Part shown: positions 8,936 through 27,306 of the stretch, one piece after another
Position numbering within the stretch: position 1 is the stretch's first letter
Layout: each line of letters opens with the position of its first letter
Assembly: GCF_000227665.2 (NCBI RefSeq)
Contig: NZ_CP007030.1
Coordinates: forward strand, 1,612,001-1,676,000
Length of the DNA: 64,000 bases
Reading direction: 5' to 3'
Origin: Thiomicrospira aerophila AL3
GTDB taxonomy: Bacteria > Pseudomonadota > Gammaproteobacteria > Thiomicrospirales > Thiomicrospiraceae
The notes under the pieces: model-generated
What the model was told of the DNA's origin: nothing
Databases searched by the model: none
Seen by the model: the letters and a program-made list of their open reading frames with translations, nothing else
Made by a program: the position numbers and the translations under genes

Positions 8936-9727
8936 CTAACCAGGCACAATGATTGGCCAAGTGCCTGGCCTCTCAATAATCTCAACCGGTGTTTGATACA
9001 CGGCTTCAATCGTCGACTGAGTTAGGACCTGATGAACCGGCCCTTGTTGAACGATTTTGCCTTCCGACAATAACAACGCGCGGTCGGCATAGTGTGATGC
9101 CAAGTTTAGGTCATGCAACACCGCCACGACCGCCATCTTGACATCGCGCGCCAAACGGCGCAGTACCTTAAACACCTGCTGCTGGTGGGCTAAGTCCAAG
9201 TTGGAGGTGCATTCATCGAGCAACAATAACGGTGGCAAGCCGCCCGTCTGTTCAGCTTGTTTGGCCGCCGTTAATATTTGCGCCAACACCCGTGCCAACT
9301 GCACCCGTTGTTGCTCACCACCGGACAAGGTGAGATAGTTGCGCTGAGCAAGATGACTGACATCAAACAACGCCAACGCCTCGTCTACTCGGCGCTTTAC
9401 TTCCGCTTTGCCGGCATAAGGAATCGCCATACTGACCACTTCTTCCGCCAAAAACGGGAAATCCAAATGCACCGATTGCGGCATGACCGCACGCAACTGC
9501 GCCAACTCACGCGGCGCATAACTGGATAACGGACGTTGATGAAATTGTACGGCGGGCTTATAAGCCTCGAACTCACCCGCCAACACCTTGAGTAAACTGG
9601 ATTTACCCGCACCGTTTGGACCCAAAATCACCAACACTTCACCCGCTTCAATCTCTACTGAAACCTGTTGCAAAATCGCTTTGCCATTCAACGTTAAATT
9701 AAAGTCTGCTACTGAAATCATACTCAT
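8936..9727 (-). CDS. hmuV: Heme ABC transporter ATP-binding protein (HmuV type)
   Basis: Probable ATPase of a heme or iron-complex importer. The 263 residues carry Walker A GPNGAGKSS (residues 36-44), the signature [17 protein letters not shown], Walker B LLLLDECTSNLD (cysteine where proline is usual) and an H-loop histidine in VLHDLNLASHYADRAL. The start may be the ATG at 9727 or the one two codons later, which has better ribosome-binding-site spacing. It is last in the hemS-hmuT-hmuU-hmuV operon, and that context is why I call it heme-specific rather than siderophore-specific. Confidence 0.88.
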   Translation of the reverse strand: MSMISVADFNLTLNGKAILQQVSVEIEAGEVLVILGPNGAGKSSLLKVLAGEFEAYKPAVQFHQRPLSSYAPRELAQLRAVMPQSVHLDFPFLAEEVVSMAIPYAGKAEVKRRVDEALALFDVSHLAQRNYLTLSGGEQQRVQLARVLAQILTAAKQAEQTGGLPPLLLLDECTSNLDLAHQQQVFKVLRRLARDVKMAVVAVLHDLNLASHYADRALLLSEGKIVQQGPVHQVLTQSTIEAVYQTPVEIIERPGTWPIIVPG

Positions 9728-9741
9728 CCCAAAAAACCGAC

Positions 9742-10773
9742 TTAAAAACCAACTCGGTTACGACGCTGGAGTAACAAAGCAAGGAAGAACGGCCCACCAA
9801 TCGCCGCCATCACCAGCCCAATAGGTAACTCCGCCGGGGCAACAATTATTCTGGCAATCGAGTCAGATAAAATCACTAAAATCGCGCCCATTAATGCACT
9901 ACCCGGCAATACCCAACGATGATCAGGCCCTAACAACAAACGCACCAGATGTGGCGCGACCAAGCCGACAAACCCAATCACCCCACTGACTGCGACCGCC
10001 GCACCCACACTCAATGCGGTCAACACAATGATCGCGCGCTTGGCAAGCTTGACATTAAAACCGATATGTTCGCTGACTCTTTCTCCCATTAAAAACGCAT
10101 TCAGGGTTAAGGCAAAATAGGGTAATAAACCTATAGCCAACAAAATCGGAATACCCGATACCAATACATCTGTCCAGGTTGCACTTGCCAAGGAACCCAT
10201 CGTCCAGAAGGTCAAGCTGCGCAAGGCTTCATCGGTTGAATAATAGGTCAAGACCCCAGTGGCCGCACCGGCAATGGCATTAATCGCAATCCCCGCCAAC
10301 AGCATCAGCGCGACATCGGTTCGGCCATCTTTGGTGGCGATTTGATAAATCAGCCAAGTAATCGTTAAGCCGCCCAAAAACGCGGCAATCGGCACCGCAT
10401 AATAGCCGGTCATAGCTGTCCAACCGGCAAGATAAGTTGATCCCAATACAATCACCGACACCGCCGCCAACGCCGCGCCGGTGGACACGCCAACCAGGCC
10501 TGGATCGGCTAAAGGGTTGCGAAACAATCCCTGCATCGCCGCACCAGCCACCGCTAAACCGGCACCGACCAGTATCCCCAGAATGACACGCGGCAAACGG
10601 ATCTCCTGCACCACCCAATTCCACTGCGCATTATCCGATAACCCAAACAACGCCAGCACCACATCTAGCCAGCCAATCTGAATCGCACCTATCGTCATGG
10701 ACACCACGGCCATCAGTAAAACCACAATCACCAATACCGATAAGCCGCAAGGCGCACATTTAATTAATCTCAC
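9742..10773 (-). CDS. hmuU: Heme ABC transporter permease (HmuU/FecCD family)
   Basis: Integral membrane permease of the BtuC/FecCD family, 343 residues and about ten hydrophobic segments. Family motifs include RLPRVILGILVGAGLAVAGAAMQGLFRNPLADPGLVG (residues are contiguous in the gene, shown here across the usual FecCD signature positions) and the cytoplasmic loop near GFVGLVAPHLVRLLLGPDHR that contacts the ATPase. Translation begins at GTG immediately after the hmuT stop (TAAGTG), so the two are tightly coupled. It moves the ligand bound by HmuT across the inner membrane. Confidence 0.9.
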   Translation of the reverse strand: MRLIKCAPCGLSVLVIVVLLMAVVSMTIGAIQIGWLDVVLALFGLSDNAQWNWVVQEIRLPRVILGILVGAGLAVAGAAMQGLFRNPLADPGLVGVSTGAALAAVSVIVLGSTYLAGWTAMTGYYAVPIAAFLGGLTITWLIYQIATKDGRTDVALMLLAGIAINAIAGAATGVLTYYSTDEALRSLTFWTMGSLASATWTDVLVSGIPILLAIGLLPYFALTLNAFLMGERVSEHIGFNVKLAKRAIIVLTALSVGAAVAVSGVIGFVGLVAPHLVRLLLGPDHRWVLPGSALMGAILVILSDSIARIIVAPAELPIGLVMAAIGGPFFLALLLQRRNRVGF

Positions 10774-11685
10774 TTATTGATTCCCGTTTTTAGCCATAAG
10801 GCGTGTTGCGCTTGATTCTTGCTGCCATTGTTGATATACATGGCTGATCATTTGCCCCAATCTAGGACCAAAGCTCAAGGCATCATTCGGCATGATAATT
10901 AAACGCTGCTGGTCAAACGCCTGCGTATGCTTCAACACCGGATTATTTAACACGGCTTGCTTACCTCCTGACATACTGACACCCTGTTCCAGCATAAAAA
11001 TAAAATCTGGATTAATATTAATAGCCGCTTCTGCTGACAACGGCTGGTAATTATAGATCTGCTGCTCCACTGGATTGGTCACGCCAATCATCTTCAGAAG
11101 TTCGTTGGCACGACTGCCTTTTCCGGCTACCGACAAATTACCATTGCGCACGGTTAAAACAAAAATCCCTTGCGGTTGACTCGCTCCGCTAGCCTGTTGC
11201 TCAGCAATGATCGCGATAGCTTGATCAAATTCCTGCGCTATAACCTGATTAAGATCACGACCTCGCTCCGGCACACCCAACACCGCCGCAATCTGCTCAA
11301 CCTTATGCATAATACCGTCTAAACTGGGCGTATTATCTATAATCTCAACCCGAATACCCGATGCCTGAAGCCGATCTAGGGTTTTGCTGGGCTTGGCATC
11401 ACTGGTCGCAATAATTAAATCCGGACTCAGTGACAAGACCCCCTCAACCGTGAGTTGGCGCATATAACCCACATCCGGCAGGTCGTTCACCGCCTCAGGG
11501 TAACGACTGGTAATGTCACGCCCTACCACTTTATCGCCTAATCCGAGCGCAAACACAATTTCTGTAACCGAGCCATCAATCGTAACAATCCGCTCCGCAG
11601 CCTGCGCTTTATGCCCCAAACCCATTAGTAAAACAAGACCCAAAAACATCAGTATCCAAAAGTGAACAACGCTTGGTTTAATCAT
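10774..11685 (-). CDS. hmuT: Periplasmic heme-binding protein (HmuT type)
   Basis: Substrate-binding protein of the heme importer, 303 residues. A signal peptide of about 29 residues ends near GHKAQAAERIVTIDG. The mature part is a class III binding fold (ERIVTIDGSVTEIVFALG, DLIIATSDAKPS). HmuT-like proteins use a tyrosine to ligate heme; several are present but I cannot assign one. The gene overlaps hemS by 4 bases (ATGA) and is adjacent to hmuU. Heme specificity rests on the hemS, hutZ and receptor neighbours. Confidence 0.88.
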   Translation of the reverse strand: MIKPSVVHFWILMFLGLVLLMGLGHKAQAAERIVTIDGSVTEIVFALGLGDKVVGRDITSRYPEAVNDLPDVGYMRQLTVEGVLSLSPDLIIATSDAKPSKTLDRLQASGIRVEIIDNTPSLDGIMHKVEQIAAVLGVPERGRDLNQVIAQEFDQAIAIIAEQQASGASQPQGIFVLTVRNGNLSVAGKGSRANELLKMIGVTNPVEQQIYNYQPLSAEAAININPDFIFMLEQGVSMSGGKQAVLNNPVLKHTQAFDQQRLIIMPNDALSFGPRLGQMISHVYQQWQQESSATRLMAKNGNQ

Positions 11686-12794
11686 GCCACCCTCCTTGCA
11701 CTATAAGCTAAGTCATTGATTAAATTCCACCATTCCTGATCATCTGCAGGCCGTTCTGTGGCGCATGGGGCGATCGAAATAATTAACCGCTCTTGATGAT
11801 CAAAACATTCAATGTGTGCAGCAAAGTCATCATCAAACCCTTTGGTTAACAACCAAATACTGGCCACCTCCGTTTCCATCAAATGCATATTAAACGCGGG
11901 ATCCAATACATTAAACCAAGGCCCAACTGTAACTAATTTATTAACTAATCCACGATGTGTTTGGATAGCACCGGCATTAGCAACAGTAATTTTAACGGCC
12001 AAATGCTTATCCCTGACGTGATTGAAAATTTGACCTAGTGCCGATGTGTCTAGCTGAAAAACCCCCTCACTCAATAACGCATAGCCAGCAGGACGCGTAA
12101 TTTTATACTGTTTGAAAAGTGAACCTATATTGTCACGGTGAGATAGCAATCGCCAATCGAGCAACAACGCCTCCTTATCAATCAATCGGCAGGATTTCAC
12201 TGACTCATGTTCTTTTAAGCAGGCCTGCAACTTCATAAACAACCAACGCTCAATACCTGCTTCCCGACTTGATCTTGCTGGATCCCCTTCAACCCCCACT
12301 TCTCTAGCCCAATCCTGTGGATTCATCAAAAAAGGAGCTATAGCATTCATAAATCCTTGTCGATCAGTCTGATCAACAACAAACAGCTTATGTAAAGCCT
12401 CACCTGATGCATCATAAAACTGCAATGAAGGCCGAGAGTCAGCTCCTAACCAAATAGCATAATGCCAACAAGACAAATCAAACTCTGCCAGCCAATCTTG
12501 TTGACTCCAACCTACTAAGCCAGATGCATAACATTCATAACATAACTCACCGGTGTGCTCTAAAACAACCGCATCATTGCGCGTTAACGCCATCGCGAAT
12601 TGACCAGAAAAGGCTTGTAGCAGCGGCTTAAAATCCTGCTTGCGAATAAAATGAATCTTCTGTAAGTCACCCAATAAAACATACATCAGCTCTGAAATAC
12701 CCATCAATTGCGCCGCGTTTCTAGCGCGTTTTTTCTCATCGATACAACGCTGCTTTGCAACAAGCAAGCTGGGACGATCAAATTCAATTTCCAT
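11682..12794 (-). CDS. hemS: HemS/HmuS-family heme-handling protein
   Basis: Cytoplasmic heme carrier or heme-degrading protein. The 370 residues form two HemS repeats. The first has MALTRNDAVVLEHTGEL and SLQFYDASGEALHKLFV. The second has VANAGAIQTHRGLVNKLV and GPWFNVLDPAFNMHL, the best-conserved HemS block. It is the first gene of the minus-strand operon; the Fur-like box at 12824-12845 lies just upstream. Family members either deliver heme to a heme oxygenase or cleave it themselves. The nearby HutZ-type gene is the likely partner. Confidence 0.85.
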   Translation of the reverse strand: MEIEFDRPSLLVAKQRCIDEKKRARNAAQLMGISELMYVLLGDLQKIHFIRKQDFKPLLQAFSGQFAMALTRNDAVVLEHTGELCYECYASGLVGWSQQDWLAEFDLSCWHYAIWLGADSRPSLQFYDASGEALHKLFVVDQTDRQGFMNAIAPFLMNPQDWAREVGVEGDPARSSREAGIERWLFMKLQACLKEHESVKSCRLIDKEALLLDWRLLSHRDNIGSLFKQYKITRPAGYALLSEGVFQLDTSALGQIFNHVRDKHLAVKITVANAGAIQTHRGLVNKLVTVGPWFNVLDPAFNMHLMETEVASIWLLTKGFDDDFAAHIECFDHQERLIISIAPCATERPADDQEWWNLINDLAYSARRVA

Positions 12795-12823: not shown

Positions 12824-12845
12824 ATTGATAATGATTATTGATAAA
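12824..12845. promoter_or_regulatory. Fur-box-like operator between divergent heme operons
   Basis: GATAAT-GATTAT (12827-12838) are two consecutive perfect NATWAT hexamers, followed by a weaker third, in a 124-base AT-rich gap between hemS (minus) and hutZ (plus). This fits the hexameric Fur model and would couple both operons to iron status. The assignment is by motif and context only. Confidence 0.7.
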
Positions 12846-12918
12846 TATAGTATTACAAAAAGAAAGCAAATGCTAATTGTTTTTAATTAGATTAACTTAA
12901 CGAACTGGAGTGAACACG

Positions 12919-13458
12919 ATGGAACGCCTACCTATGCAATCAGTCGCGATGGATTTTCAACAATTTTTAACGTCGCAAAACAGCGCTGTCTTGGCTACGC
13001 TGGATACCAATCAGCTACCCAATGCCAGTTATGCGCCCTACCTTTGGCATGATGGAAAACTTTACATTTATGTGTCTGAGTTAGCCAAACATACGGGTAA
13101 TTTATTTGTGCGCCCCGGCCTGAGTGTCATGGTGATTGAAGATGAAAAAACCTGTCAAAACATTTTTGCACGCAAAAGAGCAACACTGATGGCTACCGCT
13201 AAACCTATAGATCGCCAACACCCTAACTGGGCGGACCTAATGCATCACTATGTTAGTCACCATGGTGAAACAGCCTTACATCTTCAAAACCTTAAAGACT
13301 TTCATTTGTTTGAATTAGAGGTGTTATCAGCCACTTTTGTTAGAGGTTTTGCCCAAGCATATACCCTAAATGGCGATGCCTTAAACGAGGTTAAACATAT
13401 GAATGATCGTGGCCACGGCCAATCTTCACGTCATCTCACCGACGCACAAGCATCCTAG
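12919..13458 (+). CDS. hutZ: HutZ/HugZ-type heme-utilisation protein (split-barrel heme oxygenase)
   Basis: FMN-binding-like split-barrel protein, 179 residues from the ATG chosen here. An upstream in-frame GTG at 12910 overlaps the GGAG ribosome-binding site, so the ATG at 12919 (8-base spacing) is the better start. Family features are the N-terminal SQNSAVLATLDTNQLPNASYAPYLWHDG, the FVRGFAQAY segment, and a His/Gly-rich C-terminus (VKHMNDRGHGQSSRH) like the heme-ligating tail of HutZ. HutZ relatives bind and degrade heme in the cytoplasm. It heads the plus-strand half of the locus. Confidence 0.85.
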   Translation: MERLPMQSVAMDFQQFLTSQNSAVLATLDTNQLPNASYAPYLWHDGKLYIYVSELAKHTGNLFVRPGLSVMVIEDEKTCQNIFARKRATLMATAKPIDRQHPNWADLMHHYVSHHGETALHLQNLKDFHLFELEVLSATFVRGFAQAYTLNGDALNEVKHMNDRGHGQSSRHLTDAQAS

Positions 13459-13467
13459 GGAGCAACC

Positions 13468-14388
13468 ATGTTAAAACTACAGACCACTCACCCTACGCAT
13501 GGTTTTTGTTTAACCGACCAGTACACAAACGCAATCAAAAACTTAGCCCCAACAGGCATCTGGAAAGCCGTGTTAGTGAATTCGGGATTGCATCACCAAG
13601 TGACTGCTCGCTTTTGTAAACTCCATCATCGTGGGTCACGCTTGATTGGCTCGGCTCCATTTGTGAATGCCAATTTATTTACCCACAAGTGGCAAAACTT
13701 AGCGGCGTTTTGGCAGCAAGACCAAGCTTATATCGATATTAAAGATAGCCACGGACAGCTAGCCTACTGCTTAAAATCACTCCATGATCCAAACAGCGTT
13801 GAGGCAGAGCATTTAAGCGAATGGTTTGATACCTATGCGGGCCTAAGTGCAATCACACCAAAAACAACTCATATAAAGCGATTCAAAACCCATCGCTTCG
13901 CTGTTCAACCCATTGATCAAGGACAATTACAGCAAATTTGGTTGAGTTTTAAACACCCGCAACAAGCCAATAGTCTTTTTAAAGCACAGGCTCACCAACT
14001 TCCAACCCTCTTCGAAAGCCTTGGTAACCGCTTTGCACGCAGCATGACCTTTGAACAATTGGTTCACCACCTTGAACGCTTAAGATTGAGCCAGGCTTTT
14101 ATGAGTATCACCGCGCGTAATGAAGCGCTCACCCAAACACACCTTGGGCGCATACGTAAATTGTTTCAAACCGATGACAAATTGCTGTTAACAGATGCCG
14201 GCTTTAAATTACAAATATTAAGCAAACATATTAGCCAGGCCTGGTGCTTAAAGATTCCTACTGACACAGCTAGTGCTATTCAAATCAAATTACTGGATAG
14301 CCGTAATCAAGAAGTATTAACCATTACTGATCAACAACCCTGCCACTCTAGCCACCAGTGGCAGCAAATTTTTCAACAACTTAACTAA
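13468..14388 (+). CDS. Divergent HemS-like protein of the heme locus
   Basis: 306 residues with no strong family signature at first sight. The order of conserved positions nevertheless parallels a HemS repeat pair. In the N-terminal half, VNANLFTHKWQNLAAFW then YIDIKDSHGQLAYCLKSL resembles the HemS FDxxG block. In the C-terminal half, NEALTQTHLGRIRKL, LTDAGFKLQILSKHISQAW and KLLDSRNQEVLTI follow the HemS order (QxHxG, NVLDPGFNLHL, LFDxxGE). The usual NVLD heme-site block is degenerate here. It lies between hutZ and the receptor with 9- and 12-base gaps, so a heme role is inferred. It could be a heme chaperone paralogue of the hemS at 11682. Confidence 0.6.
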   Translation: MLKLQTTHPTHGFCLTDQYTNAIKNLAPTGIWKAVLVNSGLHHQVTARFCKLHHRGSRLIGSAPFVNANLFTHKWQNLAAFWQQDQAYIDIKDSHGQLAYCLKSLHDPNSVEAEHLSEWFDTYAGLSAITPKTTHIKRFKTHRFAVQPIDQGQLQQIWLSFKHPQQANSLFKAQAHQLPTLFESLGNRFARSMTFEQLVHHLERLRLSQAFMSITARNEALTQTHLGRIRKLFQTDDKLLLTDAGFKLQILSKHISQAWCLKIPTDTASAIQIKLLDSRNQEVLTITDQQPCHSSHQWQQIFQQLN

Positions 14389-14400
14389 TGGAGCGATATT

Positions 14401-16623
14401 GTGCGCATATATTCTAGAAAGATTGATCAAGCAGGCTTACCCAAACCAAAAATAAAGCCGTTAACATTATTTATAGCCAGTTTAATGGCTGTTTACGCGG
14501 GTACGGCTGCTGCCGATAGCACACTTGAAAAAATCACCGTTACACTTGGTGGCATTGAACAAGAACTCTATGACACCGCCAATACAGTGACCGTCATAGA
14601 TCAAAAAGCACTTGATAAAACCCAAGCGACCGGGATAAAAGACCTATTCCGTTATCAACCAGGTATTGCGATTAAAGCACAACCCATGCGTGCTGGTGCG
14701 GCATTAGGCAACACAGGGCGTGGTGGGAATGAAGGCATTAACATTCGCGGTTTAGAAGGTAATCAAGTCACCCTATTATCGGATGGGGTGCCCATTCCTG
14801 CGACCTTTAGTTTCGGACCGATGCTGGTCGGACGCGGGGATTACCTAGAACCAGAGGGCTATAAACGCGTTGAAATCCTGCGCGGCCCCAGTTCAAGTTT
14901 ATATGGCAGTGATGGTTTGGCTGGTGCCGTCAGCTTTCAAACCAAGGATCCTGAAGATCTGTTAACCCTTGGTAACAATCAACAAATCACCATTAGAACC
15001 GGCTATGATTCAGCGAACCGAGGGACCTTTATTACCCCCGCTGTTGCATTTAAAAACAATGATCTGGCCGGCCTACTGTTATTCACCCAAAGACGCTACA
15101 GCGAATTGGATAATCAAGGCAACCAAGGTGGAACGGGGGCAGCGCGGACACGTCCCAACCCGCAGAATAATCAATCAGATTATTTACTAGGCAAGTTACG
15201 TTGGCAGCTTAATGATCAACATCAGCTGCAACTCACCGGTGAATCACTCCATCGTCAACTCAAAACAAATGTTAAAAGTGGCTTAGGGCGCACCCAAATG
15301 GGGCTTATGTCCTGGGATACCACCGCACTTACCGCCAAAGATACCATCGAACGTCAAATGCTTAAGCTGGATTACAGCTTTGAAGATTTTTCACAACCTC
15401 TGATCCAATCAGCCAGAATCAGTGCCTACCATCAATCTTCTACTAATCGTCAATTTACCGAAGAAAAACGTACCGGGTCTTCGCCGACCTTTAGTGATAG
15501 AACACGTAACAATCGCTATGAAGAAGACATTAAAGGAGTAAGAGCACAATTTGAGTCAAACTTTGGTGAACAGGTTCATCACCGTATAAGTTATGGCGCT
15601 GACTATAGTTTAAACCGAATTACCCAAATGCGTGATGGTACACCCCGCGGCACCAGCTTTCCAACGAAAGACTTTCCTGATAGTGATTACGTCCAGCTTG
15701 GTTTATTTGTCCAAGATGAGATTACCCTAGGCCGGCTGAGCATCATACCAGGCCTACGCTACGATCAATTTAGCTTAACGCCAGCGCGAAGCAATGACCC
15801 AATTTACCCGGGGGTGACGCCAATCTCTCTAAACGATAGTGCGCTATCAAAAAAACTAGGATTGGTGTTCAAGCAATCGCCAATGCTAAATTACTACGTG
15901 CAATACTCGGAAGGCTTTCGCGCGCCCACACCAACCAATGTTAATAGTGGTTTTACCAACTTAACCGGTGCAAGTCCCTATAAAACCATCTCAAATCCTG
16001 ACCTCAAGCCGGAAACTAGCCAACTCTATGAAATAGGCTTGCGAGGTCAGAATGAACAACTCAGCTATCAAATCAGCCTATTCCACACCGATTACAAAGA
16101 CTTTATTGAATTAACCCAAGTCGGTGGCGCAGGGACGCCTGCTGATCCAACACTTAACCAAAGCATTAATCGTGATAGAGCTGAAGTACAAGGGATAGAG
16201 GCAGATGTCAGTTGGCGTATCAATAACATTTGGCGCATTATGGCCGGCTTTAATTACAATGAAGGACGCATGATAGCGGATGGTAAACGATCAGATCTTG
16301 CCACGGTTGAACCGAGCAAATTAGTGCTGGGCGCGCGTTATAAGCCCGGTGATTATGCGCTTGAATTGATTGCATCCCACGCAGCCGCACGCAACAACCC
16401 GGATGACGAGCTGCTTTCCACTCATGCTTACACCACCCTTGATCTGCTTGCAGAATGGGATATTAATAAACATTGGCAACTACAAGGCGGTGTATTCAAC
16501 CTAACCAATGAAGCCTACCTTCATTGGTCAGACGTAAGAAACCAACCCAAAACCAGCAGCTCGAATGACGCCTTTACCCAACCAGGGAGAAGTCTAAAAG
16601 TCAGCCTAACAACACGTTTCTGA
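14401..16623 (+). CDS. TonB-dependent heme receptor
   Basis: Outer-membrane gated channel of 740 residues. It starts at GTG with GGAG 7 bases upstream and has a signal peptide ending near AGTAAADS. The plug domain follows (NTVTVIDQKAL, NIRGLEGNQVTLLSDGVPI, YKRVEILRGPSSSLYGSDGL). The barrel contains YSEGFRAPTPTN and NPDLKPETSQLYE, the FRAP/NPDL pair that marks HemR/HmuR-type heme receptors, and it ends in an aromatic residue (LTTRF). It is the last gene of the plus-strand heme operon and feeds heme to HmuT. Confidence 0.92.
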   Translation: MRIYSRKIDQAGLPKPKIKPLTLFIASLMAVYAGTAAADSTLEKITVTLGGIEQELYDTANTVTVIDQKALDKTQATGIKDLFRYQPGIAIKAQPMRAGAALGNTGRGGNEGINIRGLEGNQVTLLSDGVPIPATFSFGPMLVGRGDYLEPEGYKRVEILRGPSSSLYGSDGLAGAVSFQTKDPEDLLTLGNNQQITIRTGYDSANRGTFITPAVAFKNNDLAGLLLFTQRRYSELDNQGNQGGTGAARTRPNPQNNQSDYLLGKLRWQLNDQHQLQLTGESLHRQLKTNVKSGLGRTQMGLMSWDTTALTAKDTIERQMLKLDYSFEDFSQPLIQSARISAYHQSSTNRQFTEEKRTGSSPTFSDRTRNNRYEEDIKGVRAQFESNFGEQVHHRISYGADYSLNRITQMRDGTPRGTSFPTKDFPDSDYVQLGLFVQDEITLGRLSIIPGLRYDQFSLTPARSNDPIYPGVTPISLNDSALSKKLGLVFKQSPMLNYYVQYSEGFRAPTPTNVNSGFTNLTGASPYKTISNPDLKPETSQLYEIGLRGQNEQLSYQISLFHTDYKDFIELTQVGGAGTPADPTLNQSINRDRAEVQGIEADVSWRINNIWRIMAGFNYNEGRMIADGKRSDLATVEPSKLVLGARYKPGDYALELIASHAAARNNPDDELLSTHAYTTLDLLAEWDINKHWQLQGGVFNLTNEAYLHWSDVRNQPKTSSSNDAFTQPGRSLKVSLTTRF

Positions 16624-16768: not shown

Positions 16769-17146
16769 ATGAAAAAATCATTGTTTATAGCAGGTGTTTT
16801 AAGCTTAAGTATGTGGAGTCTAGGAGCGCAGGCGTCCGATCATAGTGCGCAACATTTTAAAGGCGTGCCTTCTGAAACCTACGAACAGGCGGTGGCGAAT
16901 TTAGCTGAATATAACCCCAAGCTCGCCGCAATCGTTGCCAAGGAGTCCTTAACCCCAAAAGACATGGCGGACATTCATCAGTTGACCTATACGCTGGAAA
17001 ATGCCATTGAACGGATTAAAGAACATTTGGAAATGACTGCCGAAACGCTTGAAGATGTGCATCAAGCCAGTGAAAAAGCGCAATACGATATTGCCCGCGA
17101 TCAAGGCCGCATCTATTTAGACGCCTCTAATTTACTAATAAAATAA
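16769..17146 (+). CDS. Small exported helical protein (DUF6746-like), copy 1
   Basis: 125 residues with a signal peptide (about 22 residues, ending GAQAS) and a mature part that is almost all helix: HFKGVPSETYEQAVANL, then IHQLTYTLENAIERIKEHL. It resembles the small periplasmic proteins grouped as DUF6746, an assignment from memory. GGAG sits at proper distance from the ATG. A second copy at 18802 is identical over most of the mature protein. The two flank a diguanylate cyclase. Function is unknown. Confidence 0.8.
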   Translation: MKKSLFIAGVLSLSMWSLGAQASDHSAQHFKGVPSETYEQAVANLAEYNPKLAAIVAKESLTPKDMADIHQLTYTLENAIERIKEHLEMTAETLEDVHQASEKAQYDIARDQGRIYLDASNLLIK

Positions 17147-18722: not shown

Positions 18723-18801
18723 CTTGCATCCCTCAGTGCATCGACTCTTTTTTGTTGTAAGCTATAAAATGTTTTCTTGTCATTTAATGTGGAGTCTTGT
18801 T

Positions 18802-19179
18802 ATGAAAAGATCATTGTTAGCAGCGGGGGTTTTAAGCTTAGGTTTGTGGAACCTCGAAGCGCAGGCTTCCGATCACGGTCCGCAACATTTTAAAGGTGTG
18901 CCTTCTGAAACCTATGAACAGGCGGTGGCGAATTTAGCTGAATATAACCCCAAATTGGCCGCAATCGTCGCCAAGGAATCCTTAACTCCAAAAGACATGG
19001 CGGATATTCATCAGTTGACCTATACGCTGGAAAATGCCATAGAACGGATTAAAGAACATTTGGAAATGACCGCCGAAACGCTTGAAGATGTGCATCAAGC
19101 CAGTGAAAAAGCGCAATACGATATTGCCCGCGATCAAGGCCGCATCTATCTTGAGCAATCTAGGGTTTTTGTAAAATAA
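18802..19179 (+). CDS. Small exported helical protein (DUF6746-like), copy 2
   Basis: 125 residues starting at the ATG at 18802. The frame is open further upstream, but the GGAG and the signal peptide (MKRSLLAAGVLSLGLW) fix this start. From DH onward it matches copy 1 almost exactly until the last ten residues (LEQSRVFVK here, LDASNLLIK there). About 70 bases upstream are also similar (a T-rich run, then GTGGAGT before ATG), so the promoter was duplicated too. Function is unknown and periplasmic location is inferred. Confidence 0.8.
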   Translation: MKRSLLAAGVLSLGLWNLEAQASDHGPQHFKGVPSETYEQAVANLAEYNPKLAAIVAKESLTPKDMADIHQLTYTLENAIERIKEHLEMTAETLEDVHQASEKAQYDIARDQGRIYLEQSRVFVK

Positions 19180-23321: not shown

Positions 23322-24296
23322 CTATAGTCGATTCTTTGCGACGAGTCGCCTGTAATGCTCTCCTAAAGCTGTAAGCCTACAGCCTTTACTTTCCATTGCC
23401 GCATTCCACATATGAGGAGCGTCATCGGGAACGAGGAGGTTTAGGCGATTGTATCTCTGCAAAATAGCAAACTTCCGATTGTTCTCTGGATCTGGCGGGG
23501 GCATACCATCGTCTCGACCCTTCATTTCTGGCTCAAATGTTGGATCAAGCTTGAAAATCGCTCCTGGAGACGGGAAGAACTCGGTTATCCTGCGCAAGTC
23601 CTCGATGGCGATGGCAGGCGTGGATTTTCTAAGCGACACAAACTGCCTGACATTTGTTTTGAATACGGGCCTTTGCTCCCAAGCCCCTAGCGATTGATCA
23701 ATGTGCGCATACACGCTACCAGGAGTGATATCTCCTGTTAGGTTTGCCGCACTACCGTTTAATGCATCCACAAAAAGAGTGGTAAAAACTCCTCTGCCAT
23801 TCTCTTCTGTAGCATATTGGTCCTTGGTGGATGCTGTGAGCACAGTTAAACCTTCAGAAAGAGTTGCGAGCTGCCCAGCCTCTGGGGGAGTACCTGCGAT
23901 TCCAGAATGACAACTATCAAGAACGATCACTTTGTTTTTAGCTGGTGAAGCGTTGGCCAATGTTAGTATCTCGGAAAGTGATACTCCTTCGTCACCTCTG
24001 CTTGAGTCAGAAGCCAAAAGATATCCGCCGGCAGTTTCGATATGCCCATGCCCAGCGAAGTAGAACAATGCAATGTCCGCATCAGTTCTGAAAAGCTGCT
24101 CGATTTGATCTTTAAGATCTCCGCGCTTAACTTTGTTATCGGGTCCGGTTCCGGTCAGCAAGCGGCAATCAAAGTTTACAGCTCCGCCATCATGACGCTC
24201 CAAAACAGCTTTGACTGAGTGGGCATCATTGACGCATCCATGCAGCGATCCACCATGATCGTAATGATTGATGCCCACAACTAAGGCAATTCGCAT
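23322..24296 (-). CDS. Cassette 2: caspase-like protease, putative type IV Thoeris effector
   Basis: 324 residues. The N-terminal ~215 form a peptidase C14 fold: [20 protein letters not shown], catalytic His83 in FYFAGHGH and catalytic Cys129 in [10 protein letters not shown]. The C-terminal ~110 residues are unassigned and may be regulatory or ligand-binding. The ATG follows AAGGAG and lies 15 bases after the TIR gene stop, in the same cassette. Published type IV Thoeris pairs a TIR protein that makes N7-cADPR with a caspase-like protease that then degrades cell proteins during phage infection. The gene pair here has that composition. The ligand and activity are inferred. Confidence 0.85.
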
Positions 24297-24311
24297 CTTC
24301 TTCTCCTTCCA

Positions 24312-24683
24312 TCACAGGCTATCGATGAAATCTTCGATAGCTTTCCACGTCCATACCACGGTTAGGACGCCTTGGACATTTGTCCTGTCATCTGTATAGG
24401 CCCAAATTCCAAGGACTTTCTTGCCTTCTTCCTTGGCACATGCGATTTCCCACTTTTGCCCGCTGGAGGTCAGAGAGTTCTTACTTATCAAAGCTATGAC
24501 GCCATCCGACCTTTTTATTCTTGTTCGGACCCTATCTTTCCAATTCGTGTCATATGGTTCTTTGACTGACATGTCTATGTATTCAAACGGTGACTTGGTA
24601 TTTAGAGACTGACCTTTAAGAAAGTCGCGTTGCCTCTCGTCCTCAATAGCAAAAGCTACAAATATGGTTTTTTTACTAGCCAT
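24312..24683 (-). CDS. Cassette 2: ThsB-like TIR-domain protein, putative phage sensor
   Basis: 123 residues forming one TIR-like domain of the MTH538/ThsB type: KKTIFVAFAIEDERQRDFL, then WKDRVRTRIKRSDGVIALIS, then KWEIACAKEEGKKVLGI. Glu79 in the WEI motif is at the position of the catalytic glutamate of NAD-consuming TIR enzymes. No transmembrane or extra domain is present. GGAG/AAGAAAA lies just before the ATG and the cassette boundary is 40 bases upstream, so the promoter is probably supplied by the array or lies in the first bases of the cassette. It is co-transcribed with the caspase-like gene. Confidence 0.82.
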   Translation of the reverse strand: MASKKTIFVAFAIEDERQRDFLKGQSLNTKSPFEYIDMSVKEPYDTNWKDRVRTRIKRSDGVIALISKNSLTSSGQKWEIACAKEEGKKVLGIWAYTDDRTNVQGVLTVVWTWKAIEDFIDSL

Positions 24684-24717: not shown

Positions 24718-24790
24718 GCCTAACGCCAAAGCTCACCGGCGGCGATGGAGCGCAGCGGAATTGCCGTCCGAGTGCAGCGCCTTGTTAGCT
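24718..24790 (-). repeat. attC site of cassette 1 (restriction-modification)
   Basis: 73-base attC: R'' AGCTAAC, with the endonuclease stop codon inside it, to R' GTTAGGC. Arms GCACTCGGACGGC and GCCGCCGGTGAGC are imperfectly complementary. R'' pairs with the cassette start TTAGCTGC at 27388. Confidence 0.9.
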
Positions 24791-25771
24791 GCTTTTTTCA
24801 TGCGGCCCCAGAAAACGGTCACCATTGAAATGAATCATGTGGTCTGGATTGTCTGCTATCCAGACTTCAGTTTCCCAGGCAATATCAGCCGCATTTTTTC
24901 GGAATTCTGCTCGGTCTGGAAAGGCGGTGACGTAAACCAAACCAACTTTGCAATCTTTGAAAGCTTGTTCAAGCTCAATCCAGCGTTTAGGTGATACCGG
25001 CCCATGACTGGTAACTGCTTCGATTAAGAACAACCATTCCCGCTTTTCATCGTACACAACAACGTCCGGTAGTTTGTCGTGTGACATAGGTGGAACACCC
25101 AAGCCTTCCAAATAGTCAGATTCCAAATACATGAGTTTTCCGCCTTCCTTGCGACTACTGGCGGTGTCTCCAATATACAGAAGGCGCCCACCCTCTCCAA
25201 TAAAACGCGAACAAAAGTCATGCACAATGTCTGCATGAAGCTGATTGTGTTTTCCGGGTGACAGCTTGATTACATCGCCATTAGGTAACGTGATTGGGAT
25301 TTGGTGTTTTTGCAGACTGCGCTCATACAATGCTTGAAGCTCAGGAACGGCTTTTTTGAATACTTTAATTTTTTGCCTCCAATCACCGTTAGGGTAAGCC
25401 TTCAATATGTCGATGATTGGCTGATTCAAAGAGTAATTATTGTCTTTGCTATTGGTGGGGCGTGTTGGATCGTCGCGGTTGCGGTCAATGATTCGCGCCT
25501 GTTCAAACTGGTGAAGGGTTTGCCTTCTAATCGTTTCGCGGCTATTGGGTTTGTAGTCTTTGCCGTAATGGTTACGGATGAAGTCCATAATCACATACGT
25601 TGGCAGCAATGGAGCGGTAGCCACCGCCCACCTTTCATTAGGCTTTACATTCGCAAGTGCCAAAAACACCCATGCTGAGCGGTCGTTGTATTGTGCGGGT
25701 GGTAGCCCCAGTTGTTGAAGTATCTCTTTTGCCTGTTCAAGCTTGATTTGTTGTTCTTCTGTGAATTCCAA
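24785..25771 (-). CDS. Cassette 1: BsuBI/PstI-family type II restriction endonuclease
   Basis: 328 residues, close to the size of R.PstI. The C-terminal nuclease domain contains [19 protein letters not shown] (a PD...(D/E) arrangement) and [15 protein letters not shown]. It ends with [10 protein letters not shown], a block I associate with this family. By family, the target would be CTGCAG. It starts 11 bases after the methylase stop and terminates in the attC. Cleavage specificity is inferred. Confidence 0.85.
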
Positions 25772-25782
25772 GGCTCTATTCC

Positions 25783-27306
25783 TTACACGGTTTCTTTGAT
25801 CTTTAAAACTCTGTTTACAATAATATTGTTCTGGTCTGCATCAAAGACATTGAGCTTCAATACCTCTTCGCCAATATCTTTAACTTGGTCACGTGTTGGA
25901 AACCTCATAACCCTTATTTCAGTTGCGTTTACTTGGGTGTTGCCAGATATACATCTAAAGTAACGGTCAAAGAATGAACCATTGAAAATAGCGCACAAAC
26001 CATAAGCTTCTTTTTTAGTCAGTTCGCCGGATCTCACACCGATGTAATTGACCTTGTTTCCAAACCCAATGAATTCAAGGTCATCAAAATACTTTGATAG
26101 ATACACACCGGACACTAGGCGGCGCTTTTCATCTTTGGAGGAAAACCGCTTTAGAAGCACATAGTTTTTATTGTTTAATGTGTGCTTTTCGTGTTGTGCC
26201 TGTAGTTCAAAGCGAACATCTTTTTTATTCTCACCAGTCCACAGCGCGGCATAGGGCGTAACATTGTGCGGTCTATACAGTGGTATGGTGTTGTTTTGAC
26301 TGTCTGCTGAAACTATGAAGTTCCGTGTTCTATGCTCAACTACTGGACCGGTTGAAATGAAGTAGCCTGAATCTGTGAATGTTGATTCTAGTTGTTCAGC
26401 CTGTTTTAAAAGGTTGGCTTCTGTGAGTGATTCAGGAATTCTTATCAATCTTTGATCGTTGGATGGGTCAACGATCAAATCAACTGGATAGTTTTGAATT
26501 GTTGCACTTGTCAGATTTGAATCACAGTCACTAGCTCGAACTTCAACAGCTTCATAATTCGCGGCTTTCACGAATTTGCAAATAATATTTTCTTGTAAAA
26601 CCTTATCAGCATCATTTTTAAAAACGCGGTCACGATGTTTGAAAATATGGATTGATTCAATTGCAGTGACATTTAACAGGTAATCTCTGAAGCTTTTGAA
26701 GTAAAGACCATTGGTAAAGCTACGGGGTGTAATTGCTACCATTTGACCGCCTTCATTTAGGCTGGAAGCAACAATAGCCATGAATGAAGCGTATATATTC
26801 GGATCACCACTATACAAGTCACTAACGGCTTTTGCATAAGGTGAGGTTTTAACGTTGTATTTGAAGTAAGGCGGATTGATTACCGATACATCAAAGGATT
26901 CTTTCTTGTCCGGCCGATCAAGCACAAAATCACTATTTCTTATCTCGAAAGTGAATTTAACACTCTTGGACTGGTAAAAGTGTTCAATGTCCTTCATTGT
27001 CTGGTTTAGATGCGCGATAACTAAAGAATCGAGTTCATACAAAACCGCATGAACAGCTTTGCAACCTAGTCCTAAGAGTTGCACGGAAGTAGCAGCAGTC
27101 AAAACACCGGTTCCTGCACCAGCATCAAGAATACTTATTATCTTTCCTTTGGGCTTGTGTAGCATTGAAGCCATATAGTCGGCGACAACTGGACTAGTGA
27201 AAAATTGCCCTAATGTTTTTCGATCTTGCGCAGATTTGCTGCGTAAAAACGCACTCTGAAGACTAATCATGTCATCTTTGGGCTCAATTAATGACTGTTG
27301 ATACAA
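25783..27306 (-). CDS. Cassette 1: adenine-N6 DNA methyltransferase (PstI/BsuBI type)
   Basis: 507 residues, the same length as M.PstI. The SAM motif [14 protein letters not shown] and the catalytic [10 protein letters not shown] identify a gamma-type N6-adenine methylase. [16 protein letters not shown] is typical of the Eco57I/PstI group. It starts at TTG (27306) with a perfect GGAGGTAA at 7 bases, and no ATG fits better. It protects the host from the endonuclease made from the same transcript. A dyad lies in its promoter region at 27344-27364. Confidence 0.9.

Follow-up and report, generated by a model that had tools for sequence, protein, structure and literature searches.

The closest described relatives of the protein considered here are the two-repeat members of the PF05171 superfamily (HemS, PhuS, ChuS and HmuS), cytoplasmic proteins that act as heme chaperones or degraders, and whether they are enzymes or chaperones is presented as a long debate in PMC6018153 and PMC11773379. 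In HemS the heme ligands are reported to be axial H196 and opposing R102 (PMC11773379, PMC6018153), with F104 and F199 named as Phe-gate residues (PMC11773379). PMC11773379 reports strong conservation of the heme-binding residues across the family and proposes that every homologue is a hemoprotein, and in HmuS either substitution, H196A or R102A, is reported to abolish degradation while binding is kept (PMC6018153). HutX and ChuX consist of a single HemS-type domain of ~160–180 aa; according to PMC12670364, HutX supplies heme to HutZ in V. cholerae, where hutX adjoins hutZ in hutWXZ. What, then, does a HemS-type protein do once both axial residues are gone? Neither Thiomicrospira HemS nor HemS paralogs lacking the ligands were the subject of any paper listed in our literature searches.

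A heme uptake locus in Thiomicrospira aerophila AL3

The window, a 64,000-nucleotide stretch of the complete 2.16 Mb genome of this member of the genus Thiomicrospira (NZ_CP007030.1, positions 1,612,001 to 1,676,000), contains a heme uptake locus with the following features.

8936–9727, minus strand: ABC ATPase, HmuV-like (Pfam)
9742–10773, minus strand: FecCD-family permease, HmuU-like (Pfam)
10774–11685, minus strand: periplasmic heme-binding protein, HmuT-like (Peripla_BP_2)
11682–12794, minus strand: second, non-canonical HemS of 370 aa (Pfam, alignment, tree)
12826–12840, plus strand: Fur-like 7-1-7 box with 2 mismatches, in the divergent promoter region between the HemS gene and hutZ (pattern search)
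12910–13458, plus strand: HutZ/HugZ-family heme-degrading protein, PNPOx-like, first gene of an apparent operon (TIGR04110, PNPOx_N)
13468–14388, plus strand: divergent two-repeat HemS-like protein of 306 aa with an ATG start (ORF, Pfam HemS, AlphaFold2 model, fold matches)
14401–16623, plus strand: TonB-dependent heme/hemoglobin receptor (TIGR01786 and TIGR01785, both above cut-off)

The 306-aa gene lies between hutZ and the receptor gene, as the initial annotation had placed it, with gaps of only 9 bp on the hutZ side and 12 bp on the receptor side. The hutZ product matches TIGR04110 with an E-value of 3.8e-40, a score under the curated cut-off, and is also matched by PNPOx_N. The HmuTUV-like transporter (8936–11685) is encoded on the opposite strand, as is the neighboring HemS. 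A search of the whole genome found no HO-1-type heme oxygenase, and the HutW model gave below-cut-off matches only, as it did in 13 of 14 controls.

The 306-aa gene lies downstream of the Fur-like box at 12826–12840. Three Fur-like 7-1-7 sites with 2 mismatches occur in the window, where 0.42 would be expected, and no shuffle gave three; 19-bp Fur patterns had no match. Better boxes are found in related heme loci: they are perfect or carry one mismatch in L016, L017, L019 and L022, among them a perfect box in the Hydrogenovibrio hutZ-receptor locus and a one-mismatch box in the hutZ locus of T. microaerophila. The two orthologs of the 306-aa gene, in the Thiomicrospira genomes G007 and G008, have no good Fur box of their own, and one-mismatch boxes lie in both genomes upstream of divB, which encodes a related short protein.

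Two further gene groups in the window were observed. Next to the heme receptor, a GGDEF-like gene is flanked by two near-identical genes at 16769–17146 and 18724–19179, the first of which encodes a DUF6746 protein; a homologue also adjoins the receptor in G008. At 23322–24683 a caspase-like gene stands beside a TIR-like (ThsB-type) gene, near a restriction-modification pair at 24785–27306; together these form a possible defence island.

A HemS-type fold with an altered pocket

The Pfam HemS model (PF05171) matches residues 182–305, the C-terminal half of the 306-aa protein, with 45.6 bits against a cut-off of 24 (E 8.4e-12), and the two orthologs score 27.2 bits, above the cut-off, and 22.4 bits, slightly under it. 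A sequence search of the PDB returned HemS, PhuS and ChuS chains as the top seven matches, all of them weak, the best with an E-value of 0.0037 over residues 26–292. Identity to the HemS of the window is 23% over 146 columns (E 2e-8). The AlphaFold2 model, computed from an alignment of the 306-aa protein, the window HemS and 29 HemS proteins and thus dominated by canonical HemS, has a pLDDT of 85.5 and a pTM of 0.84 and shows two stacked beta-sheet HemS repeats, at residues ~19–124 and ~151–304. This model superimposes on PhuS, HemS and ChuS with Z-scores of 27–29 over ~300 residues at 15–16% identity (for PhuS 4mf9, Z 29.1 over 302 residues with an rmsd of 2.7), and Foldseek pairs it with HemS 2j0r at an E-value of 1.7e-21. 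Single-sequence prediction of the same protein, run as a control, fails with a pLDDT of 34.6; the good model therefore depends on the HemS alignment, while the Pfam match is independent of that alignment. The 306-aa ORF is thus a real, HemS-like member of the PF05171 superfamily, with homology well beyond chance.

These results bear out the earlier claim that the protein parallels both HemS repeats, both of which are modeled as such. Comparison of its structure with HemS, HutX and ChuX gave no sign of a fold unlike HemS, with the qualification that the good model relies on a HemS-dominated alignment. Since the Pfam HemS model matches the protein, its earlier description as an "unrecognised" heme-handling protein was too strong. 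The C-terminal half of the model fits ChuX and HutX with Z-scores of 11.0–11.5, and the gene adjoins hutZ as hutX does, but these are single-domain proteins whereas this one has two repeats. Identification as an orthodox HutX is unsupported: the protein is 306 aa long, Pfam ChuX_HutX (PF06228) scores 23 bits against a cut-off of 25, and TIGR04108 (HutX) gives no match.

Like HemS, PhuS, ChuS and HmuS, then, the protein has two stacked repeats and is encoded in a heme uptake locus; unlike them, it is 306 rather than ~345 aa long, and repeat 1 lacks the greater part of its N-terminal helical cap, of which helix 19–26 alone appears in the model. The initial annotation had stated that the usual heme-site block is not kept, and alignment confirms this: the GPWFNVLD stretch is replaced, residue 178 is a leucine where 29 of 29 reference HemS have arginine, and both axial columns are changed. 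The residues concerned are listed here.

13672–13674, plus strand: N69, aligned with HemS Arg102 (29 of 29 reference rows carry R; alignment)
13954–13956, plus strand: H163, which opens the HPQQA motif and stands two residues ahead of the axial-His column, a candidate substitute ligand (alignment, survey)
13960–13962, plus strand: Q165, aligned with HemS His196 (29 of 29 reference rows carry H; alignment)

Counted from the axial residues, F71 fits the Phe-gate position F104, and N168 occupies that of F199. The two axial positions are those changed in the R102A and H196A mutants of Y. pseudotuberculosis HmuS described in PMC6018153; unlike in those mutants, the loss here is natural and fixed and is accompanied by further pocket changes.

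How unusual is such a loss? We surveyed 161 two-repeat HemS-type ORFs, retained from 181 HMM hits for a length of 250–430 aa: 142 keep both axial residues and 144 the axial histidine. Both are present in all 72 HemS from named genomes, a subset of the 161, and this sample is biased to canonical proteins because the fetching patterns include the conserved block. ORF picking retained a HemS ORF at 72 of 80 loci. At position −2 from the axial column, none of the 144 proteins with the axial histidine has a histidine, D (130) or N (11) being usual there. Removal of the window HemS fragment, which was counted twice, and of the gapped rows L202, L203 and L263 reduced the 17 rows without the axial histidine to 13 alignable proteins, of which six carry a histidine at −2 and seven do not. 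Three of the six are the 306-aa protein and its orthologs; the others are the window HemS, a divB protein and L196, which comes from another family. The set is small, its members are not all independent, and it represents perhaps three or four separate lineages.

This frequency of a −2 histidine in HemS-type proteins that lack the canonical one suggests that the ligand may have moved. The model of the 306-aa protein has a loop at residues 160–165 ahead of helix 166–173, which would make a two-residue shift of the ligand structurally plausible, and PhuS H209A is reported to bind heme via His212, another histidine of the same helix region (PMC6018153). H163 may replace the axial histidine as heme ligand of the 306-aa protein.

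Other departures from the canonical site were seen during the survey. HemS-type proteins with both axial residues gone (Q and L) are encoded at L200 and L201 (genomes G252 and G116; also L045 and L046) between genes named by eye as purC-like and purE-like, and no heme gene lies in the stretch covered. At L202 and L203 (G181 and G295) the axial-His helix is apparently absent from HemS-type proteins of 283–322 aa. Proteins of ~450 aa (open frames of ~440–470 aa, for example family f207) have a weak HemS-domain match, many of them in small, fragmented genomes.

Relatives, neighbors and selection

The contrast first drawn between an altered HemS and a regular one in the same locus did not survive. 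The HemS at 11682–12794 keeps GPWFNVLD, yet its axial columns hold E and D, with a histidine at −2, and in a tree of C-terminal halves it joins short HutX-like proteins from G007 and G008 (support 99/96; 204–221 aa, under the Pfam HemS cut-off), not canonical Thiomicrospira HemS. Axial columns and tree position together rule out a regular HemS in the locus. This protein and the 306-aa protein are the only HemS-type matches in the genome and both are non-canonical, so that the genome has no canonical HemS; in T. microaerophila (G004), G007 and G008 a canonical HemS adjoins hutZ. On the tree we also reject the view that the 306-aa gene is a recent duplicate of the local HemS. Its family (5 rows, 99/99) sits apart from canonical Thiomicrospira HemS and with the HemS of dolphin-oral proteobacterial MAGs (L117, L118), on long branches with the fork partly open. 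Related short proteins are divB, in G007 and G008, and divC, in G007; divC retains both axial residues and the G008 divB retains the histidine.

A profile of the three orthologs found intact full-length relatives in Thiomicrospira only, in 3 of 9 genomes of the genus and 3 of 62 in the order. Among 369 class and 398 phylum genomes (the T. aerophila genome being in both sets) no further match came near their level, others reaching at most 72.7 bits against 510–554 for the orthologs, and a first contig scan of 81 stretches contained no relative. T. microaerophila (G004, contig C41) has a remnant interrupted by three in-frame stops. The frame is open in three species, and the orthologs, 32–36% identical to the window gene, conserve HPQQA, TARN..LTQ.H.GRI and D.GFKL. 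The G007 and G008 orthologs are 61% identical to each other, with dN 0.28 and dS 2.7, the latter near saturation; canonical HemS of the same species pair gives dN 0.30 and dS 1.49, and pairs with saturated dS were excluded. Purifying selection on these orthologs is as strong as on canonical HemS, and the family is maintained rather than decaying.

The 306-aa gene, its two orthologs and divC (four of four) each share their strand with a TonB receptor gene (in some cases a probable one), with 0–2 genes between; divB does not. In G007 the same-strand run at L017 5592–13482 is headed by the divergent HemS ortholog and also encodes a MauG-like di-heme protein, a lipoprotein-like protein of 1022 aa and what is probably a TonB receptor. 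No hutZ adjoins the ortholog in the regions fetched around those of G007 and G008. The check for co-occurrence with HutZ that had been proposed at the outset proved one-sided: the three genomes with an intact gene all have HutZ, but most HutZ genomes lack the gene, HutZ-type matches being found in 51 of the 62 family genomes (none above the curated cut-off) and the intact gene in three. A HutZ-dependent family is therefore unsupported.

Proposed heme delivery to HutZ and its alternatives

We hypothesize, at somewhat less than even confidence, that the 306-aa protein is a cytoplasmic, non-degrading heme carrier of HemS fold that supplies the HutZ encoded just upstream. Heme would enter through the receptor encoded downstream and then through HmuTUV, and the protein would hold it in the cleft between the repeats, perhaps ligated by H163. 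Lacking R102 and H196 it would not oxidise heme and would only pass it to HutZ, a hand-over that can be likened to those from PhuS to HemO and from HutX to V. cholerae HutZ. The fold, the operon-like layout, the Fur-like box, purifying selection, the loss of the axial residues, the −2 histidine and the absence of an HO-1-type oxygenase were counted for this reading; ortholog loci without adjacent hutZ, the frequent occurrence of HutZ without the gene, the alignment dependence of the model, the small number of −2 histidine proteins, the two mismatches of the box and the lack of a 19-bp Fur match were counted against it. The transfer step draws its support from gene adjacency. Of the earlier proposal of an altered HemS with a distinct heme step, the part that stands draws on fold, operon context, Fur-like box and selection. 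The biliverdin chaperone offered as an example fares less well: nothing found is specific to biliverdin, and a simpler reading is that the protein delivers heme to HutZ.

With the invariant arginine (residue 178) and GPWFNVLD both lost, however, the pocket may be unable to bind heme. It could have been rebuilt for another tetrapyrrole, one that either supplies its own iron ligand or can do without one from the protein; c-type heme peptides, a metal-free porphyrin and biliverdin produced by HutZ are the candidates. We consider such a rebuilding rather unlikely. Both axial residues are lost in all three orthologs, and a precedent is described in PMC8131568, where a HugZ homologue without the coordinating histidine switched to c-type heme peptides; this c-type heme oxygenase, Pden_1323, is likewise a heme-handling protein that lost its coordinating histidine in evolution, but its fold is unrelated and its ligand and activity are known. 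The G007 ortholog, moreover, heads the run with the MauG-like protein. In the window, by contrast, the receptor is of the ordinary heme/hemoglobin type. The window HutZ also retains a C-terminal HMNDRGHG stretch, which we take to be typical of ordinary HutZ.

The 306-aa protein might instead work with the other non-canonical HemS-type lineage (the window HemS, or the HutX-like proteins of sister species), either in a heterocomplex or to regulate heme status. A role of this kind would account for the co-occurrence of both lineages in all three genomes with the family, within ~1.5 kb in the window and in G008, and for the arrangement in G007 and G008 in which the HutX-like gene diverges from divB across a Fur-like box; apo-PhuS is reported to bind DNA (PMC7948967). 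The co-occurrence comes from three genomes only and in G007 the direct ortholog lies ~8.5 kb away, and such a role appears distinctly unlikely. Even more doubtful is a decaying paralog that no longer binds tetrapyrroles. The lost ligands and signature block, the T. microaerophila remnant and the narrow distribution would fit decay, but the frame is open in three species, motifs are conserved and selection between two of them resembles that on HemS.

For the carrier of heme to HutZ that we prefer, fold and pathway are already known. The papers searched do not mention the loss of both ligands from each of the HemS-type proteins in a genome, the short branch linked to receptors or a histidine that recurs at −2. 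A broader scenario, which we regard as unlikely, is that Thiomicrospira evolved a receptor-linked branch of short, non-degrading HemS-fold carriers with the axial histidine moved to −2, a shift that would have arisen several times in the superfamily, and that in T. aerophila two such proteins of different descent fully replace catalytic HemS and jointly feed HutZ. Natural homologues without both axial residues that are still selected in heme loci are test cases for the debate over enzyme and chaperone. Should they prove to carry heme but not break it down, the chaperone role would be separable from catalysis, and a repeatedly moved histidine, if true, would illustrate how heme sites can shift position during evolution.
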